A DNA stretch of 45,642 nt, from the NCBI GenBank assembly GCA_022780025.1, contig JALEXS010000036.1:1-45642 (forward strand). The letters are read 5' to 3'. The notes beneath the pieces were generated by a model. The model was not told the origin of the DNA and searched no databases. It worked only from the letters and a program-made list of their open reading frames with translations. Position 1 is the first letter of the stretch. The number at the start of each line of letters is the position of its first letter. The position numbers were made by a program, and so were the translations under genes. Shown here piece after piece: positions 7,415-22,659 of this stretch. The DNA is from Mollicutes bacterium. GTDB lineage: Bacteria; Bacillota_I; Bacilli_A; RFN20; CAG-826.

Positions 7415-8273
7415 ATTCTTTTATTTTAATTGTTTTATCGATGTTACCATCAACTTCAATTACTTGATTTAATAAGAATTTACAATGCATATCATATGTA
7501 TTTTCAGATTCTTTTGATTCATATGTACCATCATAAATTAAATTAGTAATTACATTTTTATCATTAAATGAACAAGTAACATTACAATCAAAGATAATTT
7601 GTTGATAAGTAAATTGAACTGTTCCTTTTAAAGAAATTTCATCTTTTTTACTAATAAAATAAGTTTTATTATTAATACTATTAATAAAATCAGTAGTTGC
7701 TCGATTATTACTAATAGAATTATTAATCATATTAGCTAATCCGCTTTGATAAGAGGAAATAGTTTTTTCATTATTAATAGTTTGAGTTTTAAACTCTTCA
7801 TTTTTATAAGTATTAGTAATTAAAGTTTTATCTTCTTTATTAAGATAATTTTCTTCAAAAGTTCCACTTATTTCTTCACCTGGATTATTAGTAGATTTAT
7901 CAGTTATTTGACTAATACTTTCTTGATAACTATAAAGATCATCTTTATTAGAATCACCTAAAAATCCAAAGTAAGTAATTTGAGTAAAATCAAACTTAGT
8001 GTCTTTACCTTGTTCATCTTTAGTGTTAGATAAAATAGATAATTTAACGCCTTGTTTAAAAAATAACCTTGCAGAACTAAGCTCTTTTTCTTTATTTTCA
8101 TTAAAATAATTATTAAAATCTTCTTCAGTAATATCTTTCTTTTTATCTATTTTATTAACTAAATAATCTTTAAAATTAGAGCGAGCTAAAATCTTATTAG
8201 TTTCTTTTTTATCACAAGAAACTAATGTAAAAATTGAAAAAAGAATTAATACTAATGTTAGCTTTTTATTCAT
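7413..8273 (-). CDS. Lipoprotein encoded at the end of the opp operon
   Basis: MNKKLTLVLILFSIFTLVSCDKK lipobox; start overlaps the oppF stop (8266-8268). Confidence 0.8.
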   Translation of the reverse strand: MNKKLTLVLILFSIFTLVSCDKKETNKILARSNFKDYLVNKIDKKKDITEEDFNNYFNENKEKELSSARLFFKQGVKLSILSNTKDEQGKDTKFDFTQITYFGFLGDSNKDDLYSYQESISQITDKSTNNPGEEISGTFEENYLNKEDKTLITNTYKNEEFKTQTINNEKTISSYQSGLANMINNSISNNRATTDFINSINNKTYFISKKDEISLKGTVQFTYQQIIFDCNVTCSFNDKNVITNLIYDGTYESKESENTYDMHCKFLLNQVIEVDGNIDKTIKIKE

Positions 8274-9978
8274 TATTATTTTTTCCTTCATCTAATTCAA
8301 TGATTTCTTTCTTATATTTATTAACTTCTTCAGTATTAGCCAAAATGAAATGTCCTGGAACAATTTCAACTAATTTAGGCTTTTCAACACTATAATCATG
8401 TGCCTTACTTGGTTCGTAAATTATACGTTTTCTATTTTTCTCTGAAATTGGATTTGGTTTAGGAATTGCACTTAATAAGCTCTTAGTATATGGATGAAGT
8501 GGATGTTTAAATAATTCATCACTACTAGCAAGTTCAACAATTTCGCCAAAATACATAACAGCAATACGATCACAGAAATATTTAACAACACTTAAATCGT
8601 GAGCAATAAACATAATTGTTAAGCCCATTTCTTCTTTTAAATCATTAAGTAAGTTAATAATTTGAGCTCTAATAGAAACATCTAAAGCACTAATTGGTTC
8701 ATCACAAATTAATAATCGTGGATTCATAATTAAAGCACGAGCAATACCGATTCTTTGGCGTTGGCCACCACTAAATTCATGTGGATAACGGTTAGCATAG
8801 TCAGCGATTAAACCAACCTTTTCTAATACTTCAACAACTTTCTTATGATTTTCTTCTCTATTATGATGTCCTTGAATTTTTAAACCTTCTTGAATAATAT
8901 CTTCAACAGTCATTCTTGGATCTAAAGAATCGATTGGATCTTGGAAAATCATTTGAATTTCACTCATGACTTTCTTATTATCTTTCTTTAATGGCTCTAA
9001 GATTTTATTGATTTCTTCAATCTTTTCATCTCTAGTCTCAACTAATTGAGCCATCTTTTGATTATGAGTTTCTTCATCTAAATTAGATTTATCTAATTCT
9101 AAAGAATTCTTTTTAAATTCTTCGTTGATATCTTTTAATTTAGCTTTTAAAATCTTGATTTTATCACCATTATTAGTTAATTTAGGAGCGTTCTTTTGAT
9201 CATATTTAATTTGCTTAATTTTAGCTTTTTGAACACGAACAATTTCATTACGTTTTGCTTCTTCTTTTTCTAAATTAAGCATTAAAATACTTTCTTTAGC
9301 TAAATAAGCATTTTCTAAATTGGTTTTACATTCATCTAATTGATGTTTAACTTCTTCTTGAGTTAATTTGCCTTCTTTTAAAGATGCTTCTAATTCTTTA
9401 ACTTTAAGAGCATAGGCATCTTTATTTGCTTTTTTAAGATCAGCAAGTTCTTTTTTAACACTCTTTTTATATTGATTAAATCTAATATTAGTAAATTTTA
9501 TTTCTTTTTCGTTCCATCTACTACCAGCACTAATTCGATAGCCATTATAGTAAACTGAACCACTAGTAATATCATAAAGTCTAATAATACTACGACCAGT
9601 TGTAGTTTTACCACATCCTGATTCACCAACAACGCCAAAACATTCACCTTCTTTTATTTGGAAAGAAATGTCATGGACTGCTTTAATCTTATATTTTTTA
9701 GGTCCTTTTCCGAAGAAAAAGAATTGTTTTAAATGATTAACACTTAATAAAACATGATTTTGTACTAATTCTTCTTTATAAGTACATTTACTAGTAATAT
9801 TTTTAATTTGTTCTTCTAAAGGAAGTTCACTTAAAGGGTTAATTTCGCTATCACTAGGTGGTACATGTTCACTATATTCATTAGAAGAATCAATTCTATT
9901 TTCATCTAAAACATCTGCTATTTCTTTAATAGCTTTACCTTCATCGGTGTTAGATATAGGATTTTTATTCTCCTTCAT
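8266..9978 (-). CDS. oppF: Oligopeptide ABC transporter ATP-binding protein OppF with internal coiled-coil-like insert
   Basis: Walker A GESGCGKTT, Q-loop MIFQDP, signature SGGQRQR, Walker B LLICDEP, C-term HPYTKSLLSAIP. Confidence 0.93.
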   Translation of the reverse strand: MKENKNPISNTDEGKAIKEIADVLDENRIDSSNEYSEHVPPSDSEINPLSELPLEEQIKNITSKCTYKEELVQNHVLLSVNHLKQFFFFGKGPKKYKIKAVHDISFQIKEGECFGVVGESGCGKTTTGRSIIRLYDITSGSVYYNGYRISAGSRWNEKEIKFTNIRFNQYKKSVKKELADLKKANKDAYALKVKELEASLKEGKLTQEEVKHQLDECKTNLENAYLAKESILMLNLEKEEAKRNEIVRVQKAKIKQIKYDQKNAPKLTNNGDKIKILKAKLKDINEEFKKNSLELDKSNLDEETHNQKMAQLVETRDEKIEEINKILEPLKKDNKKVMSEIQMIFQDPIDSLDPRMTVEDIIQEGLKIQGHHNREENHKKVVEVLEKVGLIADYANRYPHEFSGGQRQRIGIARALIMNPRLLICDEPISALDVSIRAQIINLLNDLKEEMGLTIMFIAHDLSVVKYFCDRIAVMYFGEIVELASSDELFKHPLHPYTKSLLSAIPKPNPISEKNRKRIIYEPSKAHDYSVEKPKLVEIVPGHFILANTEEVNKYKKEIIELDEGKNNNE

Positions 9979-11962
9979 TTTCTTTTACCCCCTTTAATGC
10001 ATTATTAATTCTTTCTTTAACAATACGTGGCATTTCAACTTTTGGAGCATCTGGATATAATAACCAAGTTGCTGCGTAGTGAGTATCACTTACTTTAAAG
10101 AAAGGTGGCTCATATTTAAAATCAATTGCCATCGCATATTTACTTCTTAAAGCAAAAGCATCTCCTTTAGGTGGGAAACGTAAATCAGGTGGAGTACCTG
10201 GAATTGCTTCAAGTTTTTCTTTAGAATCGATATCAGGAATAGATGATAATAAAGCCCATGTGTAAGGATGTTTTGGTTCGAAGAATACTTCACTTGATAA
10301 GCCATATTCAACAATCTTACCAGCATACATTACAGCGACACGATCAGCCATATTAGCAACAACACCTAAATCGTGAGTAATAAATATACAACTTAATCCT
10401 CTTTCATGTTTAAGTTTATTAATTAATTCAAGAATTTGAGCTTGAATAGTAACGTCAAGAGCAGTTGTAGGTTCATCACAAATTAAAATATCTGGATTAG
10501 CAGTTAAAGCAATTGCGATAACAATTCTTTGTCTCATACCACCACTAAATTCAAATGGATATTGCTTAAAACGTTTTTCAGGAAGAGGAATACCAACTTC
10601 TTTCATAACATCTAAAGCCATCTTTTTAGCTTCTTTTTTAGTAATTTTTGTTTTATTAACAAATTCTTCTTTAGCAGCTTCGATTTCTTTTTCTAATTTA
10701 GATATTTCTAATAAATAAGAAGCATAATCTTTATTTGGAATTTCTTCTAAAACTAATTCTTTTTTATCAGAAGTACGAGTTAAATTAATTTCAAAATTCT
10801 TCTTTTTCTCTTTATTAAATTTTTTAGTAGCTAATTCATTACGAGCTAAAATTTCATCAATTTCTTTAAGCAAATCAGGATTAGTTTGTTCTAATTCTCT
10901 ACGTAATAAACTAATCTTATTTTTATAATCGCTAATCTTATAATTGATAGAATCAACAGTTTCTTTTAACTTTAAAGTAATCTCAGCTTTATACTCAAGA
11001 TTATCTTTTTTAGCAACTACTTTAGCTTTCTTTAATCTAACTAATAATAATGGTTTTAATTCTAAATATCTGAGTTTAGCAGACTTTTTATTATTTTTAA
11101 TATAGTTTTTACGGTCTAAAATTCTTTTAAGATAATCAAATTCACCATCAATATTAAAATTCTTTTTATATTCTAAAATTTCTTCTAATGACTTTTGAGC
11201 ATGAGCTAATCTAATATCATAAACTTTATTTTTTTCTTCATCTTGAGATAAAGCTTTATGTCTATTAATATGATCGATTTGATAATTTAAATTATTTATT
11301 TCAACATCTAATAAATCATAAATTTTTCTAAAATGTTCTTTGATTTTTTCATCTAAAGTTAATTCATTTGTAGCTTCTTTAATTTCTTTATTTTTCTTAA
11401 TAAGTTTTTGTTCTTTTTTATAATCTTTTTCAAATTGATCTAATAAGCTTAACTCATTATCACATTTACTAATTTCATATTTATAATTAGCACGATTATT
11501 ACGGTAAGCAACTAATTCTTTAGAAATTAATTCATTATATCTTTTCTTTAAGATATTTGAATTAATCATTGTTGCTTCAATAATTTGTTTACCTACTTTC
11601 ATAATAGGATTTAAAGAACTAAGAGGATCTTGGAAAATCATTCCAATTTTATGTCCTCTAATACGGTGAAATTCTTCTTCACTAACTCTAACTAAATCTT
11701 CGCCTTCATAAAGAATTTGACCACTTTCAATAATAGCATTTTTAGGTAAAATACCCATGATAGTTTTACTAGTAACACTTTTACCGCTACCACTTTCACC
11801 GACAATGCATAAAGTTTCACCTTTATATAAATCAAAGCTTACACCTCTAACAGCATAAACCATCCCTGAATCGCTTCTAAAAGAAACTCTTAAGTTTTCT
11901 ACACTTAATACTTTTTCTTTATCTTTATATGTAATATTAACTCTTTTTTCCATATTATTCAT
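9965..11962 (-). CDS. oppD: Oligopeptide ABC transporter ATP-binding protein OppD with large internal coiled-coil-like insert
   Basis: Walker A GESGSGKS, Q-loop MIFQDPLSSLNP, signature SGGMRQR, Walker B ILICDEPTTALDVT, HPYTWALLSSIP. True start may be the Met at 11953. Confidence 0.93.
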   Translation of the reverse strand: MNNMEKRVNITYKDKEKVLSVENLRVSFRSDSGMVYAVRGVSFDLYKGETLCIVGESGSGKSVTSKTIMGILPKNAIIESGQILYEGEDLVRVSEEEFHRIRGHKIGMIFQDPLSSLNPIMKVGKQIIEATMINSNILKKRYNELISKELVAYRNNRANYKYEISKCDNELSLLDQFEKDYKKEQKLIKKNKEIKEATNELTLDEKIKEHFRKIYDLLDVEINNLNYQIDHINRHKALSQDEEKNKVYDIRLAHAQKSLEEILEYKKNFNIDGEFDYLKRILDRKNYIKNNKKSAKLRYLELKPLLLVRLKKAKVVAKKDNLEYKAEITLKLKETVDSINYKISDYKNKISLLRRELEQTNPDLLKEIDEILARNELATKKFNKEKKKNFEINLTRTSDKKELVLEEIPNKDYASYLLEISKLEKEIEAAKEEFVNKTKITKKEAKKMALDVMKEVGIPLPEKRFKQYPFEFSGGMRQRIVIAIALTANPDILICDEPTTALDVTIQAQILELINKLKHERGLSCIFITHDLGVVANMADRVAVMYAGKIVEYGLSSEVFFEPKHPYTWALLSSIPDIDSKEKLEAIPGTPPDLRFPPKGDAFALRSKYAMAIDFKYEPPFFKVSDTHYAATWLLYPDAPKVEMPRIVKERINNALKGVKENEGE

Positions 11963-13973
11963 CCGATCCTTTCAAAGATGGGTTAAAGGCATCTCTAAGC
12001 CCATTACCAAATAAATTAAACGAAATCATTAATAAAGCAATAATAATAGCAGGGACAACTAATAAATGAGGATAAGATTGAAGGAATTTTTGGTTATCAG
12101 ATAAAATAACACCAAGAGATTGTAATCCTTTAAGTCCAAGTCCTAAATAAGATATAGTAGCTTCACTAAAAATAACGCTAGGAATCATTAATACACTACT
12201 TGTAATAATAGTACCCATTGCATTAGGTAAAATGTGTCTAAAAATAAGTCGAACATTGCCAGCACCTAAAGTTCTACTAGCTAAAACGTATTCTCTACCT
12301 CTAAAACGATAGAATTGAGTTCTAGTAACAGCACTAGTTCCAATCCAACCAGTTAAACATAATGCTAAACAGAATATCCAGAATGATTGACCAAATTTTA
12401 AGATCATTAAAGTCATCATAACGATCCAAGGTATACCACTTAAAATATCAGTAAATCTTTCCATAAGTAAATCTGGTAATCCACCAAAATATCCAGCAAT
12501 AGACCCCCAAACTAAACCAAAGATAAAACAGATTGCACTAGATATTAAACCTAATAATAAAGATGTTCTTAAACCAATAAAAACAATTTTAAGTAAATCT
12601 TGTCCTACTTGATTAGTACCAAATAAGAAAGTAGGCATCTTGTCATAACCTAATAATTTATAATTATAAATACCACATTCAAATTTATAATAAACATTAC
12701 CAGTTTCATCACTAGATAACTTAACACTATTAACATAGACTATTGGAGTATCATCATATCCCATTTCATAAAGATTAACATTTATATAATTACTACGATT
12801 TGTAATAAAATCTTTAGGTAATTTACCTTTATCAATATAATTTTGAATACTACTTTGATCAATTGTCATTTGCTTTATACCATAGACTGCATCATAAGCA
12901 TCATAAGTAAAATCAACATAATAACAAGTAGCACCCTTAAGTTCACGGGCACCATTACCAAAACTATAAATATTCCAATAACTTAATTTATCACTACTAT
13001 CAATATATAATTTTTTACAAGCATCAGTAATAGATACATTTTCATCAGTAGTATTATTTACTTCATAGAAGAAATTCTTAATTGGAATAAATGTATTAGT
13101 TTTACTACTAGCTTTTAAATTAAATGAAATATAAGCATTTTCATATTTTGTAATTGTAGGAGCTTTTTCAGTTAATATAGAATTTAAATTAATAATTTTA
13201 TTATTTACTTTTTCATTAAAATCTTTTAAAACAATTTGATTTTCATTTAAAACTCCTGCTTCTTGAGTTTCACTAGGATATTCAAAAGTAATTGAATATT
13301 CACCTAATTCATAACCATCATAAGTATCATCACTAAGCATATAATTAATTAAATAATTATTAGTACTTAAATCAATAGATATTGAAGGAGAGAAATATTT
13401 AACTAAGTGGTTATTAATATATTCTTCACTATCATTACTTAATTTATCACTAGAAATAATAATACTTCCACCATTACCATAAGGAGAAGGAACATTAGTG
13501 ACACCTTGTTTAGGTAAAGATAATTTAACTATACTACTTTTTTCAAAACTAATTGTATATCCTTGAACTTTACTTTCACCAGGATACATATAACCATTAC
13601 TATCTTTAGTAGATGGATCAGCTATTTTATCTTTATATTCAACAGTTCCATCCCAAAAACCAGTACCAGCATCAAATAATTTAGGTGGCAAAAATTGTTC
13701 AACTGGATGTTGTTTTTCTGTATCATAAGTAATCGCTACAGGTAAAACAAAACTTAAAACAAGTAAAACACCTAAAATAACTGCGCCAGTAACACTAGAT
13801 TTATTCTTACAAAATCTTTTTAAAGCATCTTTAAAGAATGTGGTAGGTTTATTTTTAAATTTAGTATCATGAATTGATTTATCAATTTGAACTAATTTAA
13901 AATCATCATTATTTAATTTAACAGAATGAGAAACATTACCACTATCAATATATTGAAATTCTTTTTCTTCCAT
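11955..13973 (-). CDS. oppC: Oligopeptide ABC transporter permease OppC with ~360-aa insert after TM1
   Basis: FLFGTNQVGQDLLKIVFIGLRTSLLLGL and EYVLASRTLGAGNVRLIFRHILPNAMG permease motifs. Confidence 0.92.
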   Translation of the reverse strand: MEEKEFQYIDSGNVSHSVKLNNDDFKLVQIDKSIHDTKFKNKPTTFFKDALKRFCKNKSSVTGAVILGVLLVLSFVLPVAITYDTEKQHPVEQFLPPKLFDAGTGFWDGTVEYKDKIADPSTKDSNGYMYPGESKVQGYTISFEKSSIVKLSLPKQGVTNVPSPYGNGGSIIISSDKLSNDSEEYINNHLVKYFSPSISIDLSTNNYLINYMLSDDTYDGYELGEYSITFEYPSETQEAGVLNENQIVLKDFNEKVNNKIINLNSILTEKAPTITKYENAYISFNLKASSKTNTFIPIKNFFYEVNNTTDENVSITDACKKLYIDSSDKLSYWNIYSFGNGARELKGATCYYVDFTYDAYDAVYGIKQMTIDQSSIQNYIDKGKLPKDFITNRSNYINVNLYEMGYDDTPIVYVNSVKLSSDETGNVYYKFECGIYNYKLLGYDKMPTFLFGTNQVGQDLLKIVFIGLRTSLLLGLISSAICFIFGLVWGSIAGYFGGLPDLLMERFTDILSGIPWIVMMTLMILKFGQSFWIFCLALCLTGWIGTSAVTRTQFYRFRGREYVLASRTLGAGNVRLIFRHILPNAMGTIITSSVLMIPSVIFSEATISYLGLGLKGLQSLGVILSDNQKFLQSYPHLLVVPAIIIALLMISFNLFGNGLRDAFNPSLKGSDE

Positions 13974-13975
13974 AA

Positions 13976-15010
13976 TTAATTCTTAGCCCCCATTCTAATA
14001 CGTGGATCAATAAAGCCATAAGATAAGTCTACTAAAACGCCAGCAAGTAAACTAATAAGAGTAAATACAGCCATATCAACCATTAAGACGTTATAATCTT
14101 TTAAATTAATAGCATCTATAAATAAACTTCCAATTCCAGGGATAGCATAAAGTTGTTCAAGAATCATACTACCGCCTAAAACACTAATAAATGAAGAAAT
14201 AATTGATGGTAAAATAGGAACCATCGCATTTCTTAAAGCATGTCTAATAATTGATTGAGTTTTTGTTAAACCTTTAGTTCTAGCAAGTAAAAGATAATCA
14301 CTACTCATAACTTCACAAAGTTCAGCTCTAGTAAAACGTGTATAACTAGCAACAGAACCAAAACAAAGTGATAAAACAGGTATGACATAACCTGCTACTT
14401 TTGTACTAGTTGAGGCTGTTTCACTTGGCCATTGCATAGGTAGCCAATTATTAGAAAAACAAAGCCAAAGCATTAATAAAGAAATAACAACAAAACTAGG
14501 AACACTAATAAAAACCATAACAATAGTTGATATAAAGTGATCAGTTAATTTATTCTTTTTTAAAGCAGCGACTATACCAAATAAAATTCCTAAAGGAACA
14601 CTAATAAATACAGATATAATATTAATTCTTAAAGAATATGTTAATCTACCAGCAATAATGCTCATTGCATCGACATTAGGATCAATATCAGTTGATGTAC
14701 CCCAATCCCATTTTGTAAAAATGTTCCTTAGCCAGTTTCCATATTGGCTCATAACTGGTGTTGAATAATAATAATATGTACCAAAACCATAGTCATATTG
14801 CCATAAAAGTTCACCATAAGCTGGGTTAGGTTCACTGAAAGCTTTAACATAACCTAAAGCTACTTGTTTTTGATAAAAACCAAAAACAACACTAGGAAGT
14901 CCTGCTGGCTTAGAAATAGGAAGCATTTTCATAAATATAAAAGTTAAACTAAGAATAATAAAAGCAGTAACAACAGCTAATAAGATTCTTTTAATAACAT
15001 ACTTTGTCAT
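13976..15010 (-). CDS. oppB: Oligopeptide ABC transporter permease OppB
   Basis: MTKYVIKRILLAVVTAFIILSLTFIFMKMLP N-term; DYLLLARTKGLTKTQSIIRHALRNAMVPILP EAA-loop motif. Confidence 0.92.
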   Translation of the reverse strand: MTKYVIKRILLAVVTAFIILSLTFIFMKMLPISKPAGLPSVVFGFYQKQVALGYVKAFSEPNPAYGELLWQYDYGFGTYYYYSTPVMSQYGNWLRNIFTKWDWGTSTDIDPNVDAMSIIAGRLTYSLRINIISVFISVPLGILFGIVAALKKNKLTDHFISTIVMVFISVPSFVVISLLMLWLCFSNNWLPMQWPSETASTSTKVAGYVIPVLSLCFGSVASYTRFTRAELCEVMSSDYLLLARTKGLTKTQSIIRHALRNAMVPILPSIISSFISVLGGSMILEQLYAIPGIGSLFIDAINLKDYNVLMVDMAVFTLISLLAGVLVDLSYGFIDPRIRMGAKN

Positions 15011-15066
15011 CCTCTTCCTCCTAAATATACTTTTAATATTATATCAATAATATTAAATATGAAAAA

Positions 15067-15110
15067 GAAGAAATTAGCACAAGTATGATAAACTTGTGCT
15101 AATATTCTTC
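15067..15110 (-). promoter_or_regulatory. Long hairpin in the oppA-oppB intergenic gap (attenuator/processing candidate)
   Basis: ATTAGCACAAGT (15073-15084) / ACTTGTGCTAAT (15092-15103), 12-bp perfect stem, extendable by gaagaa/ttcttc around a bulged A. Confidence 0.7.
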
Positions 15111-15131
15111 AATTAATTAAATAATAACTAA

Positions 15132-17996
15132 TTAACCTTGATATGGGTTACGTTTTGTGTGTTTAACTTCAATATAACTTGATGAAGTTAATGTATCACT
15201 ACCACTAACAAATTGCATATCATAGTTAATTTGGAATGTAACTTTTGTACCAGTAATAATCTTGTCACTATTATCAGCATTAGTTGCATCATATTTGATT
15301 TTAAATGTAATAGTACCAGCATCACTATCTGCACCAGTAACTACTGCATCATTAACTAAATATGTAGCATAAGCAGTTTCAGATTGACTCTTATTATATT
15401 GGACGAAGACATAAATTCCATCATCACTATTAATAGCAACTTTTACATCTTTAGAACCACTAAGAATACTAGCTTTTGTCCAAGAAATAACTACATCATA
15501 AGATTTATCTTCTGAATTAAATTCCATCTTACTAACTTTTAAAGTAAATGGAGCAACGATTTGACCTTTAGAATCAATTGAAGTACCACTATTAGCAGCA
15601 GTAAATAAACTATCAAATGACCAAGTTTTACCTTCATAAACTAATGTATTATCAATGGTATCAGTTGGAACGCCCCAGTTAAGAGTAAATCCACTACTAT
15701 CATCACTCTTTAAAACTTCTAAGAAGTTTAATGGGTTTAAAGCATTACCAGAAATAGAACCAAATCCTAAATCGAAGTTACCAACTTGTAAATGTTTACT
15801 ATAAACATCTTCATAGTTACTAGTACCATCATGATTTACGACATCTAATTTAAATTTACCACCACTAACGGCGTTATCATTAAATGCACTTTCAATGTAT
15901 TCTTCAATCTTAGCACCATAGTTTTTAGTATCATCAGTATTCATCCAATAAATATCGATTGTTTCGTGATTTTTATTTGGATTAGTTAAGTCATAACTTC
16001 CTGCAGCAACACATTCTTGAAGAGCTTTTTTAAAGTGATTAATTGCAGCATCTTTATCATAACCATAAGTTTCTGGGAATCTAGTAGCTAAATTAGCTTT
16101 ATGATAAACTGTATCGTTATAAGATAAACCTGCTTCTGGATCATATAAATAAGCATCACCGAAGTAATCTTGTGAAGGAATTGTACCTAAACTTTCAGCA
16201 TATTCTTTTCTATTAATACATTCATTTAAACCTCTTAAGAAATTCTTATTAGACATAAGAGCTTTAACGGTGTATTTAACACTATTTGCTTTCTTTTTAA
16301 ATACTTTTTCATAGTGAGCATCCCATTGTGCTTGAGTTGCACTATTAACATTAAGTTTAAATGTAGAATCACCTAAAGTTTCATGTTTTCTAGGATCACT
16401 AGCATATTTTTCAAGTTGACCTTGAGGAATTGAAGAAGTATCAATTACTCCTTGTTCAAACAAATTTAAGACAGTTTGTTCATCTGCTCCTGCTTTAATA
16501 AAGCAGTGAATTCCAGGAATCTTATATCTAGATTTAATTGATTCATCATTATCTTTATAAATGTTATCGATATATTTATCATTCTTTTTAAAGACAATTT
16601 CATTTTGATCACTGTTCCAGCTTTCAAGCATATAAGGCCCCAAGCAAAGAATATTATCAACAACAGTTCTATTATGTTTACTATCGTTAGATCCGTAATA
16701 TGTCATACCACCGATTTCAGTAACAAAATCTTTTGGGAATGGCATTGTAAGATTACCAGCTAAACTATATTTAGCATAGAATGTTGTAGTTGATTTAGCT
16801 AATGTAAATACTAAAGTATCTTTTGTTCCTTCTTTAACTTTAATACCAACATTTAACTTTTCCCATAATTCATCATCAACACCACCATCACTTAAGTTAT
16901 AGTAAGCATTAGCACCAGCTAAAGTACCATCACTTGTAATAGAAGTCATTTCAGCACCACGGGATAAATTATTTTTCTTAGTTAATAATTGTTTATAAGC
17001 GTTGATATAATCTTCAATTTCAACTGGTCTACCATCATATCCTTTACCAGTAGAAGCATCATATTTTCCTAATTTTGTAGATGTTGTTCTATAAACTAAT
17101 CCACTATTTTCATATGTTTTAACTTTAACTTCAAATTGAGTAGCAAAGCCACTAGCATTAGCATTAGTTGGAACTGGATTTTCACTAATTGCTAAACTTG
17201 GATACCATTCATAACCAGTTTTAGTCTTATTCATTTTAGTTGACCATAAACCAGTAGAAATATAACCATATAAATCACCAGTAACACTACCTTGAGAATT
17301 CAAGTAATTAATATTACTTGGTTTAGTTGAAAGTAATGAGTGATAATATGACTTCCATTCAGTATTTTGTGAAGCATTAGCAAGTTCAGCAGGTTGAGTA
17401 ATTTCACCATCTGTTAAATTACCATAACCATAACCTGGAATATATTTATCAGCACCAGTTTTAACACGTGGATTATATAAAACATATCCACCATTTTGGA
17501 ATAAAGTAATACCCATTAAGGAATTATCTAAAGCCCAACCTTCAAGTTTTCCAATAATTTCAGCTTTTTCTTCATAAGATTTAGCTTGGAAATTATAACC
17601 ACCACTAGCTTGAGATGCACTTTCTTCTACTTTAATAGTAATTTTTTTACTAATACCACCATAAGTAGCTGTACAAGTAATAATTGCTTCACCAACACCA
17701 TTAGCAGTAATTTGACCATTTACTGGATTAACAGTAACGATACTAGGAGCACTTGAAACATATTCAAATTCTTTAGTAGCATTAGATGGGCTAATTTCCA
17801 TTGGAACTACAGAATTAATTTCTCCTTTATACATTAAATTATTACTAACACCAGCTTGTAAAGTGAAATCCTTAACATCTACTTTTTGAGTAGGTGATGG
17901 TGGAGTTGGTGTATCAGGGGTTTTTCGACAACTAGTAGCACCAAACGTGACTAAGCATAGAGTTGCAAATCCTAGTACAAACTTACCTTTTCTCAT
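15132..17996 (-). CDS. oppA: Oligopeptide-binding lipoprotein OppA with N-terminal BIG2-like Ig domain
   Basis: Lipobox VTFGATSCRK; Ig-like segment SPSNATKEFEYVSSAPSIVTVNPVNGQITANGVGEAIITCTATY; SBP_bac_5-like body; first gene of opp operon. Confidence 0.88.
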   Translation of the reverse strand: MRKGKFVLGFATLCLVTFGATSCRKTPDTPTPPSPTQKVDVKDFTLQAGVSNNLMYKGEINSVVPMEISPSNATKEFEYVSSAPSIVTVNPVNGQITANGVGEAIITCTATYGGISKKITIKVEESASQASGGYNFQAKSYEEKAEIIGKLEGWALDNSLMGITLFQNGGYVLYNPRVKTGADKYIPGYGYGNLTDGEITQPAELANASQNTEWKSYYHSLLSTKPSNINYLNSQGSVTGDLYGYISTGLWSTKMNKTKTGYEWYPSLAISENPVPTNANASGFATQFEVKVKTYENSGLVYRTTSTKLGKYDASTGKGYDGRPVEIEDYINAYKQLLTKKNNLSRGAEMTSITSDGTLAGANAYYNLSDGGVDDELWEKLNVGIKVKEGTKDTLVFTLAKSTTTFYAKYSLAGNLTMPFPKDFVTEIGGMTYYGSNDSKHNRTVVDNILCLGPYMLESWNSDQNEIVFKKNDKYIDNIYKDNDESIKSRYKIPGIHCFIKAGADEQTVLNLFEQGVIDTSSIPQGQLEKYASDPRKHETLGDSTFKLNVNSATQAQWDAHYEKVFKKKANSVKYTVKALMSNKNFLRGLNECINRKEYAESLGTIPSQDYFGDAYLYDPEAGLSYNDTVYHKANLATRFPETYGYDKDAAINHFKKALQECVAAGSYDLTNPNKNHETIDIYWMNTDDTKNYGAKIEEYIESAFNDNAVSGGKFKLDVVNHDGTSNYEDVYSKHLQVGNFDLGFGSISGNALNPLNFLEVLKSDDSSGFTLNWGVPTDTIDNTLVYEGKTWSFDSLFTAANSGTSIDSKGQIVAPFTLKVSKMEFNSEDKSYDVVISWTKASILSGSKDVKVAINSDDGIYVFVQYNKSQSETAYATYLVNDAVVTGADSDAGTITFKIKYDATNADNSDKIITGTKVTFQINYDMQFVSGSDTLTSSSYIEVKHTKRNPYQG

Positions 17997-18029
17997 AATT
18001 TTTACCTCCTATAATAAAAATAAACAAAA

Positions 18030-18096
18030 ATATTTCATTCTATTTATGCTTTGTAAATATATAACTTTTTAAGTTATATTTTTAAATATGAAATAT
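18030..18096 (-). promoter_or_regulatory. Nested inverted repeats in oppA leader
   Basis: ATATTTCAT (18030-18038)/ATGAAATAT (18088-18096) encloses ATATAACTT-TTT-AAGTTATAT (18059-18079). Confidence 0.45.
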
Positions 18097-18133
18097 CTAT
18101 TAATAAAAAATTAATAAATATTCAATAGTAATG

Positions 18134-18160
18134 ATTATATCACACTTTTTTTATATACAA
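18134..18160 (-). promoter_or_regulatory. Candidate oppA promoter
   Basis: On the minus strand, TTGTAT (18155-18160) and TATAAT (18134-18139, TGTGATATAAT context), 15-nt spacer. Confidence 0.4.
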
Positions 18161-18537
18161 AAATATAAAATTAACGCAATTAATAAAAAAATAAAAGAAA
18201 TAAATATATATCCAAGGGGTGAAAGTTTATTTTCTTTACGATTTTTTTGCTTTTTTTCTTTATATTCATAAAGATCTTTATACTTTTTTTCTTTCTTAAT
18301 ACTTAATGAATATGGGATTACACTAAATCCATAACTAATAGAATCAAAAAATCCTTCATTATTAACATAAGATAATAAACCAATAATAAATACAAAAAAT
18401 CCAGCTAAAAATAATCCATCACAAGCGATAGCTAAATTCATATTAAATCTTATTAGATAATAAATTAAAAAGAATATAATTCCGATAACTAATCCAATAA
18501 GAGCACTAAATAAAATAACTTTTAATTTATTCTTCAT
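18151..18537 (-). CDS. DUF3899-like small membrane protein
   Basis: Hydrophobic segments with CDGLFLAGFFVFIIGLLSYVNNEGFFDSISYGF, resembling the DUF3899 family. Confidence 0.6.
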   Translation of the reverse strand: MKNKLKVILFSALIGLVIGIIFFLIYYLIRFNMNLAIACDGLFLAGFFVFIIGLLSYVNNEGFFDSISYGFSVIPYSLSIKKEKKYKDLYEYKEKKQKNRKENKLSPLGYIFISFIFLLIALILYFCI

Positions 18538-18558
18538 TTTTTACTTTTTAATAACAAT

Positions 18559-18580
18559 AAGGAGCTCAAACGAGCTCCTT
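18559..18580 (-). terminator. Terminator downstream of S8 protease
   Basis: AAGGAGCTC AAAC GAGCTCCTT perfect 9-bp stem. Confidence 0.7.
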
Positions 18581-18603
18581 AATTATAACTTAATTTAAAC
18601 TAA

Positions 18604-21600
18604 TTATTTAGTTTTTTTCTTTTTTCTAATAGCTAATGTTGTAGCTAAACCACCAAGAGCTAAACTAGATAAGACAATTGAACTAGCAATAACGCTTCCG
18701 CCACAACCTTTTTTACCAGTTGAGTAACTGCTACTTGCTTGACCAACAATCTTAAATTGAGCATCTCTTAATCTAAATGAAATAGTTTGACCATCACTAC
18801 TTAAAGTGTAATTAGTGATTTCTGGAGTAAGTCCACTAGCTAAAATTCTATAAACTTTAAATCCAGCTTTGAAATCTTTAACACTAACTGTAACTATTTT
18901 ACTTGATTTAGATAAACTAATTGTTTGACCATTAGCATCTAATAAAGTTTCACTATAAGTTCTAGTTAATGTAGATCCTTCTAATTTATCAGTAATTTCT
19001 TCAGTTAATGAATAACCAGGAGTTAAGTTACTATCATTGAATAATACGCCACCTTTAGAAAGATTATTGACATTAAATAAGTATTTATTACTACCATAAG
19101 CAGCATCAACAGCTTCTAAATAAACCTTTCCATCTGGACTATTTTCTTTAATTTCACTTAATTTAACTTCAGCATAGTAACTTCCATCACTGACTTTTGT
19201 AAATTTACCATCTCCAATAAATCCACCATTGAAGCTAGCACTATATAAGTAATCTTCTTTGAAGTAAACTCTTAAATATTCAGTTCCTTTTACTTTAGTA
19301 ATTTCTACTTTAGTAATTTCTGGAGATTCACTATCAATAATAATTTTAACTTCTTTAGTAAATGTTTTTGTTTCACCAAATTTACCAGTTACACTTCCTT
19401 GATAAGTGAATTTCATTCTTAATGTGTATTCACCACTATCAAGCATTTCACTTCCACCTGCAGTTTTTGTTAATGGAATAAATGCATGAGCTCTATGAGC
19501 AATAAGATTTCCAAGCCAGCTAGCTCCAGCAAATGATTTTGCTAAGCCATCAGTAGAAGTACTAAATAATGGATCATAGAATCTTGGGTGATTTCTATTA
19601 CCACTAGCATCAGCTCCTAAAACATCAAGAGCATAATCTTTACCATCAGGTCCAATTAATTCAATATTTGAATTATTAATTGCTCTATTAACATAAAGTT
19701 GAATGAATAATCCACTTGTAGCACCACTAGCACCAACATAAAGTTTATTACCATCTACTTTATTAATAGGAGTTGTAATTTTCTTAATATTACTATTATT
19801 AAGCCACATTTGTTGCATATTAGTTAAGAATGCAGATTCTTTATAAATATCATTAATATTAATAGCGCCAATATATGAACCATAATCTGCTTCAACTAAA
19901 GATAATCTCTTAGCTAAAGTATTTAAGATATCACTACCATAGATTTTGCCTTCTTCTTTTTCAAAATCAAATGGTTCGACTGGTTCTTGAGCAAAATAAT
20001 CACCATAGAATCCCATATAAGGAATATTTAAATCAGTTAATTCAGTTTTAGATGTATCAACTGGTGATAAATATACATATCCTTCTAAATAAGTTCCGTT
20101 AGGGAATTTTTCTTCAATTGCAGCTTTTTCTTCAGTAGTTAAGCTAGTAGAAACATTAATTGTAGTTTCTCCATTACCTTTAATAACTACTTCATCTAAA
20201 TCAACTTTCTTAATTAATTTATCTTCAATTGATTGGAATTCTTTTCCCATATATTCTGGGAATTCTGGATCATTACCAGGTTGAACTTCTTCAGTATAAG
20301 TAACAGTATCTGGTTTTAAAACAAAGATTGAAGCTTTATATTTAACGTCACTAGTAAGTTCACTATGAGCTTTAAATGAGAATTTAATATTACCTTGAGC
20401 AATATCTTCATTATTATAAAGTTCAACTTTAGCTTTCTTTTCAGTTGTTCCTTCTAAATAAATCTTAGATTTAAGAGCTTCACCGACATCAACCATACCA
20501 GACCCACTTCTTCTAGGAGAATATAATGAATTAATACCTTCATCACTATCTTTACTTAAATCGACATAGCCTGTTTTACTACTTGTAACTTTAGCAGTAG
20601 ACATAGTTCTCATTGGAATAGTATCTTTATAGGCTTTAGTTTCTTCTTTAGTTCCAGTATTATTTTCACTTATTAATAAAGCAACAGCACCACTATAGTT
20701 AGGAGCACTCATACTAGTACCACTTAAATATTTATAAGCTGTTTTATCTTTAATAAATTCATAAGTTGTATAATCAGTTTTATCACCTGGAACTGGTCCT
20801 CTAATAGCACTACCTGGAGCAGTAATATCAGGTTTAATTCTTAAATCATAAGTTGCACCATCAGTAGAGAATTCACTCATTTTACCAACATTAGCATTAG
20901 CTCTATCGGTATTAGCAGCAATAGAAAGTACTTTATTAGATGCATTCTTTAAATTATTACGATCTTTTTGTAAAACCATTGCAACAGGAACTGTAATAGA
21001 TTCAACAAATTTAGAGAAATCCATTCTCATATTGAAATCTGTAGCACCTGGATCATTATTAACAATAATTACACCAGCTGCTCCATAAGTAATAGCATTA
21101 ATAATTTTGGTAGTAAAAGCAACACCACCACCTCTATCAACAACACAAATCTTATTAGCTAAAGGTCTAGCATCACTTCCTTCAGGGAAAGTTTTTTCAA
21201 AATCAGCAGTTTCACCAAATCCATCAATATAAACATATTCAATTTCAGTACCGATTTCATCAACTAATTTTGAGAAAGGTAAATCTTCATTTAAAGAATC
21301 ATTTCTTTCTTTAGTAGCTTGATCATCATAACTTACAGCATTACTTCCAACAATAAATGCTTTATCATAGTGTTGAATTTCAAGGTTACCACTACCAATA
21401 GTCATAACATCTTCACTATTTGCATAACTTCCTAAAGTACCATTATCAACAAAATCTTTTAAATAATTAGCATAAGGACCCATTGAATTATATAATTGAC
21501 GTCCGTTATTTCCAGCACTAACACTACAAATAGTTCCGTTTTCTTTTAATTTCTTAAATACTTTAAATGATTCACTCTTTCCGTCAAAATCATCTAAATC

Positions 21601-22659
21601 TTGGCCTAAAGACATATTTAAGACATCAACGTTAAGAGTTAAAGCATCATTTAATGCTTTTAAAATAACACTATCATTAGCACCAGTTGATGGAACAACA
21701 CTATTACTAACATCAATTGATAAAGGAACATTATCAGTAAAAACCTTCATTAAAGCAAGTTGAGCATCAGGTGCTACGCCTTGATAAGTAGGATCATTTC
21801 CAGCAATAATACCAGCAACGTGAGTACCATGTTCACTATAAGGTGAATAAGCATCAAAATCTGGAACATATTCAATTGAAGAATAGCTTGTATATTTTGT
21901 TTCTTTACCATCTTTTCTTGTATAATAAGCAATTACTTCGCCACTATCATCATTTTCAGTATAAACTGTACCACCATAATCATAGGCAAATGGTATTTTA
22001 CTATTTATATAAGTTGAGTGAGTTGTATCACTTTTAGCATAGAAACTATCACCAGCATTATTAATTAAAGTAGTAATTTCATCTTCAGTATATTTAACTT
22101 TAGATGCATCTAATGGTTGGAAAGCATTATGAGCAGTATAAAAACCACTATCTAATACAGCAACTAAAGTGCCTGCACCTTTATTAGATGAAGTAGGTAC
22201 ATTCATTGTATCTAAACTGTTATTAGAAACTGTACCAGTTCCACTACTACCACTATCTAAAGTAACTGATTCATTAATTGCATTATAATCAGCACCTTCA
22301 ATCTCACTATTTGTCATATCAGCAAAACGATATACCTTATCTTCAGTAACACTTTCAACTAAAGGCATATTTTCAATGACTGAGACTTTATCTTCATTAA
22401 CTCTTAATAACATTGCGTTAGTAGCTTTTGTGTAATTTTCAACAAATTCATAATTAAAACCAATGTAATTATGTAAAGCTTTTCTAAAAGCTTCTTGAGA
22501 AGCTTCAACATCACTTTCACTATTACTAAAAGGATCAACATTTAAAGAAACAATAATTGTTTTATTTAATGGATCTTTTGTTACTTTATTATAATCAGCT
22601 GAACTAATTGTAAAACTTAAAGCACCAAGAGTTAACATCATTAATCCTATTTTTTTCAT
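18604..22659 (-). CDS. Secreted S8 (subtilisin-like) serine protease with PA domain and C-terminal GCGGS/TM/Lys tail
   Basis: Asp motif VAVLDSG, His motif HGTHVAGI, oxyanion-hole SVSAGNNG, Ser motif SGTSMSAPNYSGAVALL; PA-like ICVVDRGGGVAFTTKIINAITYGAAGVIIVNND; C-term KKGCGGSVIASSIVLSSLALGGLATTLAIRKKKKTK. Confidence 0.93.
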   Translation of the reverse strand: MKKIGLMMLTLGALSFTISSADYNKVTKDPLNKTIIVSLNVDPFSNSESDVEASQEAFRKALHNYIGFNYEFVENYTKATNAMLLRVNEDKVSVIENMPLVESVTEDKVYRFADMTNSEIEGADYNAINESVTLDSGSSGTGTVSNNSLDTMNVPTSSNKGAGTLVAVLDSGFYTAHNAFQPLDASKVKYTEDEITTLINNAGDSFYAKSDTTHSTYINSKIPFAYDYGGTVYTENDDSGEVIAYYTRKDGKETKYTSYSSIEYVPDFDAYSPYSEHGTHVAGIIAGNDPTYQGVAPDAQLALMKVFTDNVPLSIDVSNSVVPSTGANDSVILKALNDALTLNVDVLNMSLGQDLDDFDGKSESFKVFKKLKENGTICSVSAGNNGRQLYNSMGPYANYLKDFVDNGTLGSYANSEDVMTIGSGNLEIQHYDKAFIVGSNAVSYDDQATKERNDSLNEDLPFSKLVDEIGTEIEYVYIDGFGETADFEKTFPEGSDARPLANKICVVDRGGGVAFTTKIINAITYGAAGVIIVNNDPGATDFNMRMDFSKFVESITVPVAMVLQKDRNNLKNASNKVLSIAANTDRANANVGKMSEFSTDGATYDLRIKPDITAPGSAIRGPVPGDKTDYTTYEFIKDKTAYKYLSGTSMSAPNYSGAVALLISENNTGTKEETKAYKDTIPMRTMSTAKVTSSKTGYVDLSKDSDEGINSLYSPRRSGSGMVDVGEALKSKIYLEGTTEKKAKVELYNNEDIAQGNIKFSFKAHSELTSDVKYKASIFVLKPDTVTYTEEVQPGNDPEFPEYMGKEFQSIEDKLIKKVDLDEVVIKGNGETTINVSTSLTTEEKAAIEEKFPNGTYLEGYVYLSPVDTSKTELTDLNIPYMGFYGDYFAQEPVEPFDFEKEEGKIYGSDILNTLAKRLSLVEADYGSYIGAININDIYKESAFLTNMQQMWLNNSNIKKITTPINKVDGNKLYVGASGATSGLFIQLYVNRAINNSNIELIGPDGKDYALDVLGADASGNRNHPRFYDPLFSTSTDGLAKSFAGASWLGNLIAHRAHAFIPLTKTAGGSEMLDSGEYTLRMKFTYQGSVTGKFGETKTFTKEVKIIIDSESPEITKVEITKVKGTEYLRVYFKEDYLYSASFNGGFIGDGKFTKVSDGSYYAEVKLSEIKENSPDGKVYLEAVDAAYGSNKYLFNVNNLSKGGVLFNDSNLTPGYSLTEEITDKLEGSTLTRTYSETLLDANGQTISLSKSSKIVTVSVKDFKAGFKVYRILASGLTPEITNYTLSSDGQTISFRLRDAQFKIVGQASSSYSTGKKGCGGSVIASSIVLSSLALGGLATTLAIRKKKKTK

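Follow-up and report, generated by a model that had tools for sequence, protein, structure and literature searches.

A cysteine-containing C-terminal tail in apparently wall-less Bacilli and its candidate partners, an Lgt paralogue and a CPBP protease

A tail of about 35 residues, which ends a large secreted subtilase and other secreted proteins of a Mollicutes bacterium (assembly GCA_022780025.1), is real and very probably a sorting signal. By analogy with known systems, it is probably a C-terminal lipoprotein sorting signal: a paralogue of Lgt (prolipoprotein diacylglyceryl transferase) would lipidate its Cys and a CPBP (Rce1-like) protease would cut off the following helix, so that a C-terminal lipid anchor would be left. 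The subtilase gene lies in the window, by which we mean the whole stretch of DNA analysed (45,642 nucleotides of contig JALEXS010000036.1), and the genes of the two candidate enzymes were found outside the window in the same genome.

The subtilase (S8) is encoded by a 1351-aa ORF at 18604-22659 (minus strand), in which a Peptidase_S8 domain (2.9e-41) and a PA domain (2.2e-12) were detected together with the catalytic triad motifs VLDSG, HGTHVAG, and GTSMSAP. Its N-terminus, MKKIGLMMLTLGALSFTISSADY (22591-22659, minus strand), looks like an export signal peptide and has no lipobox, in line with the preliminary description. The final 36 residues (18607-18714, minus strand) were KKGCGGSVIASSIVLSSLALGGLATTLAIRKKKKTK, exactly as described there, and comprise KKGCGGS, a hydrophobic helix, and RKKKKTK; inspection of this tail found no LPxTG. 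Genes for lipobox proteins (a crude test counted nine in the window; 270-31021, minus strand) lie on both sides of the tail-bearing protease gene, so the cell also lipidates proteins at the N-terminus in the usual way.

A search of the subtilase's own genome (G000) with the last 41 residues alone retrieved three further proteins with E values of 8e-9 to 2e-5, namely an Ig-like (Big) protein (contig C66, 12225-15092, plus strand) and two GDPD proteins (C66, 23999-26485, plus strand; C78, 23089-25014, minus strand). Each of them has a signal-like N-terminus as well as the tail, which is thus carried in this genome by four secreted proteins of three unrelated kinds and has the form GC-x-G-[SND], hydrophobic helix, and K/R. 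A profile built from the four tails matched 27 of the 96 family genomes, as many as 10 times in a single genome; this recurrence and the sharing within the own genome show that the tail is more than a chance resemblance. With a 25-tail profile, matches were obtained in 79 of the 279 genomes of the order (17 of 56 genera, up to 11 per genome). When 296 genomes were drawn from the class, only one outside the order matched at 1e-6, which shows that the profile is specific and that few tails occur beyond the order. The tail-bearing proteins included subtilases, Endonuclease I, nucleases, glycoside hydrolases 3 and 32, GDPD proteins, and proteins with Ig-like, collagen-like, or carbohydrate-binding domains. 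The profile search that the preliminary description had called for therefore showed the block to be shared by many other proteins, several per genome, and the proposed non-LPxTG tripartite signal with an invariant Cys was borne out. A tail of the form DTGCGASINVAGSVVIALIAVAGVALVIKRKF was seen in a genome from another family of the class (locus L099, G473:C144, 283-1602, plus strand), so the order may not be the limit of the system. At the DNA level, the pattern GGNTGYGGNGGN had five sites in the own genome, of which those on contigs C40 and C53 were rejected as tails because they are not at protein ends.

The Gly-Cys pair was invariant in all 53 distinct tails read. The second position after the Cys was Gly in 49 of them and the third was Ser, Asn, or Asp in 50. 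The distance of the Cys from the protein end was 29-35 residues. Free variation of the Cys and Gly positions, or a block confined to this one protein, had been named beforehand as the mark of a plain membrane anchor; instead, Gly-Cys was constant and the block occurred on many proteins. A motif-blind profile of the helix and basic part only still recovered proteins with Gly-Cys in place, although the loci had originally been fetched with a motif-bearing profile and the test is therefore partly circular. The lone strong motif-blind match marked as lacking the Cys (L149) reflected an alignment offset, since this protein has KKGCGG. Of the 45 tail proteins whose signal peptide was clear, one had a lipobox-like Cys, as against 30 of 54 other secreted proteins of the same loci, by a crude regular expression that misses some lipoproteins among these 54. 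Judging by these sequences, the tail seems to take the place of N-terminal lipidation.

CPBP proteases (PF02517) were detected in 94 of the 96 family genomes, usually as one copy, and tail-bearing genomes usually had an extra one. In the own genome, a CPBP protease is encoded outside the window (locus L120, C66, 982-1716, plus strand); it matched PF02517 at 1.9e-16 and carries the motifs by which the myxosortase family is recognized (EExxxR, FxxxH, and HxxxN/D). A tree of sampled copies separated the extra class from the housekeeping class with an SH-aLRT of 100, and the motifs EExxFR, FxxxH, and HxxxN/D were conserved in the alignment of the extra class; no solved structure was found for the CPBP protein by sequence search. 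Among the 279 genomes, the extra CPBP and the tail were both present in 68, only one of the two in 13 and 11, and neither in 187 (Fisher, 1.5e-39), and the association persisted when stratified by genus (CMH, p = 5e-16). Within the window's genus, the extra CPBP occurred in 1 of 26 genomes, the own genome, which bears the tail; the sole other tail-bearing genome of this genus is 52% complete. A tail gene was found within 20 kb of the extra CPBP gene in 10 of 25 cases, compared with 0 of 26 for the housekeeping CPBP gene.

In genus g30, extra-class CPBP genes were observed with neither an Lgt paralogue nor a detectable Gly-Cys tail nearby (L214, 8850-9617, minus strand; L215, 3456-4226, plus strand), and the gene following the CPBP gene in L215 (4267-5364) encodes a protein ending in a helix and RKKKKAK, with no Cys. 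The g30 genomes are the doubtful cases that are left, and their CPBP may be a relative with another job, possibly acting on a different signal. A scan of named genomes with alignment A1 gave one relative, G004, and a match inside a Salipiger ORF that was rejected as chance; alignments A4 and A2 were too variable for use.

Near the extra CPBP gene, a partner gene recurred in 16 of 19 neighbourhoods, mostly as the immediately next gene, and this gene encodes the Lgt paralogue. Nine further CPBP neighbourhoods, picked mostly among apparent exceptions, were paired in five cases (G159, G142, G259, G099, and G238) and unpaired in four (G133, G094, G054, and G030). In the own genome, the Lgt paralogue gene (PF01790; locus L120, C66, 228-998, plus strand, outside the window) overlaps the CPBP gene by 17 bases, on the contig that also carries two tail genes. 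Eight paralogues were assigned to PF01790 with values of 1.6e-28 to 2.8e-35, above the cut-off, and a profile search related the paralogue to the E. coli Lgt structure 5AZB (2e-18); in a tree, a fully supported split set it apart from the housekeeping Lgt. Residues equivalent to R143, G154, and R239 are kept, and N146 and E151 are replaced by Cys in all 16 aligned paralogues (GRxGCxxxGCCxG), so that diacylglyceryl transfer by this protein is not assured.

Counting all Lgt hits, with the paralogue and the housekeeping enzyme taken together, at least two Lgt copies were associated with the tail within genera (p = 3e-8), and 63 of the 67 genomes that combined the extra CPBP with two or more Lgt copies had the tail, as did 9 of the 182 with neither, several of these 9 being incomplete. 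One of the four apparent exceptions among the 67, G159, has a GH3 protein with the tail KGCGSAVGLSV...KKRKEDK, which scored below the cut-off. Tail-bearing genomes with a single Lgt hit (e.g., G133, G148, G150, and G152) were also found; most of them, not all, are incomplete.

On the proposed pathway, the protease would be exported by Sec via its N-terminal signal peptide, and the C-terminal helix would halt it in the membrane with the basic tail inside. The dedicated Lgt paralogue may then, at the outer face of the membrane, join a diacylglyceryl group to the invariant Cys through its thiol, and the adjoining CPBP glutamic intramembrane protease would cut just after the lipidated Cys, with the helix being discarded, as suggested by MrtX with MYXO-CTERM and Rce1 with CAAX. 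The enzyme would remain on the outer surface, held by its C-terminal lipid. It is by analogy that we infer the lipid, the order of the steps, and the cleavage site. We consider it rather likely that these components make up a self-contained C-terminal lipoprotein pathway, in which an Lgt paralogue, its active-site loop remodelled and rich in Cys, would lipidate a C-terminal Cys of inverted topology and its partner CPBP would remove the helix.

Cleavage of the tail by CPBP could also take place with the lipid coming from the housekeeping Lgt, from another enzyme, or from none, the Lgt paralogue having a related but different job. MrtX cleaves MYXO-CTERM in E. coli, a host having only its own Lgt (PMC11980579), and sorting by CPBP only is favoured as well by the altered active-site residues of the paralogue and by G133, which has tails and the extra CPBP yet one Lgt hit. 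We nevertheless regard this explanation as unlikely, because the paralogue is tied to the tail system by genes that overlap or neighbour each other in most neighbourhoods and by the three-way co-occurrence. It is very unlikely that the CPBP/Lgt pair serves ordinary N-terminal lipoproteins and is linked to the tail only indirectly. Both families can act on N-terminal lipoproteins elsewhere, and LnsB, a CPBP-family protein, functions in lipoprotein N-acylation in S. aureus (PMC7387801). However, Lgt was found in 263 of the 279 genomes irrespective of the extra pair, lipobox proteins are abundant, as in the window, and the pair follows the tail within genera, with CPBP genes lying near tail genes.

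A hydrophobic helix followed by Lys/Arg would by itself anchor a protein, and the tail might accordingly be a single-helix membrane anchor that is never processed. Such an anchor needs no invariant Gly-Cys at a fixed place and would not follow two specific enzymes across genomes, and other C-terminal-helix proteins of the same loci lack the motif; we therefore judge an unprocessed anchor highly improbable. Processing by a sortase or rhombosortase, as for LPXTG or GlyGly-CTERM signals, is hardly credible here. The tripartite layout is the same, and LPXTG_anchor gave weak sub-threshold matches to 12 of 25 tails (best, 0.006). In contrast, sortase (PF04203) and rhomboid (PF01694) were each detected in only 4 of the 279 genomes of the order, none of them tail-bearing, and no rhomboid was detected in the own genome; the control genomes were positive in both searches. 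The preliminary description had anticipated a rhomboid, a sortase, or another membrane protease as the partner; the last of these was found, in the form of the CPBP glutamic protease usually beside the Lgt paralogue, and the former two were not found in tail-bearing genomes. It had also held that peptidoglycan anchoring would make no sense in a wall-less host. PBP transpeptidases (PF00905) were detected neither in the own genome nor in 91 of the 96 family genomes, which makes such an anchor unlikely here and agrees with that view, the host being apparently wall-less; one tail-bearing genome, G016, does have PBP transpeptidases.

The closest described counterpart is MYXO-CTERM/MrtX of Myxococcota (PMC11980579), which likewise has a tripartite tail with an invariant Cys preceding the helix, numerous clients in each genome, and a CPBP glutamic protease partner. 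Cleavage of MYXO-CTERM by MrtX was shown to depend on the tail Cys, and for the cognate acyltransferase Lgt was named only as a leading candidate (PMC11980579). The present system differs from MYXO-CTERM in its motif, GC-x-G-[SND], in a protease that falls far short of the Mrt models in score, in the dedicated Lgt paralogue found with that protease, and in its hosts, which are PBP-less Bacilli rather than Gram-negative bacteria with type II secretion. Synerg-CTERM/MrtS and JDVT-CTERM/MrtJ (NCBIfam NF040589 and NF033192) are likewise known pairings of a Cys-CTERM with CPBP, and MrtS and MrtJ were among the nearest named CPBP models; however, the tail matched no model, and ten CPBP proteins all scored below the cut-offs, with best scores of 21.6/100 (Mrt_core), 40.9/130 (MrtS), and 29.8/75 (MrtJ) bits. 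The Lgt/LspA lipoprotein pathway similarly uses an Lgt-family enzyme and an outer-face Cys beside a helix, followed by an intramembrane cut, whereas here a C-terminal Cys precedes the helix, in inverted topology, CPBP takes the place of LspA, and the paralogue has Cys instead of N146 and E151. From LPXTG/sortase and GlyGly-CTERM/rhombosortase, which share the order of motif, helix, and basic tail, the system differs in lacking LPXTG, in having Cys as the invariant residue, and in the absence of either enzyme from tail-bearing genomes.

No NCBIfam model (June 2026) matched a tail at its cut-off, and no known Cys-CTERM model was among the matches of 25 tails, for which the best match of any model was Loki-CTERM (0.0012); for the window's tail the best was Heimdall-CTERM, which scored 15.6 bits where its cut-off is 24. 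No paper on the tail or on an Lgt-CPBP sorting pair was found in the literature searched, which did not extend to a 2024 article by Haft (J Bacteriol 206:e00173-23) that reportedly describes three Cys-containing signals. We file the system as a variant of the Cys-CTERM/CPBP systems, of which the Lgt paralogue is the distinguishing part.

If the proposed pathway is correct, these apparently wall-less Bacilli would have a Cys-CTERM system for which a candidate acyltransferase is identified, and this system could guide the search for the acyltransferase that MYXO-CTERM-like systems still lack. The display of large enzymes on the surface of cells that have no sortase, and apparently no wall, would be explained as well. 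Since the paralogue gene lies beside the CPBP gene and follows the tail across genomes, the lipidation step can be tested directly, and two genes and a single short tail are enough to do so. For the annotation of many uncultured genomes, the system would supply a tail model together with two partner enzymes.

Several other genes adjoin the pair or the subtilase. In genus g26 (L123-L128), the CPBP/Lgt pair is flanked by genes for GH3-type proteins (about 1000-1150 aa), of which some bear the tail and others end in a plain C-terminal helix, and for a lipobox protein that is conserved and has about 360 aa. In the window, two oligopeptide-type ABC ATPases (570 and 665 aa; 8266-11962, minus strand) are unusually long, the ATPase domain of each being interrupted by a Lys/Glu-rich, probably coiled-coil insert that well exceeds 100 residues, and the adjoining permease (672 aa; 11955-13973) has a large insert after its first helix. 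The oligopeptide transporter operon beside the window's protease (8266-17996) is resembled by the one that the CPBP/Lgt pair adjoins in G099 (L218, G099:C21:57000-76000, 8993-18933).
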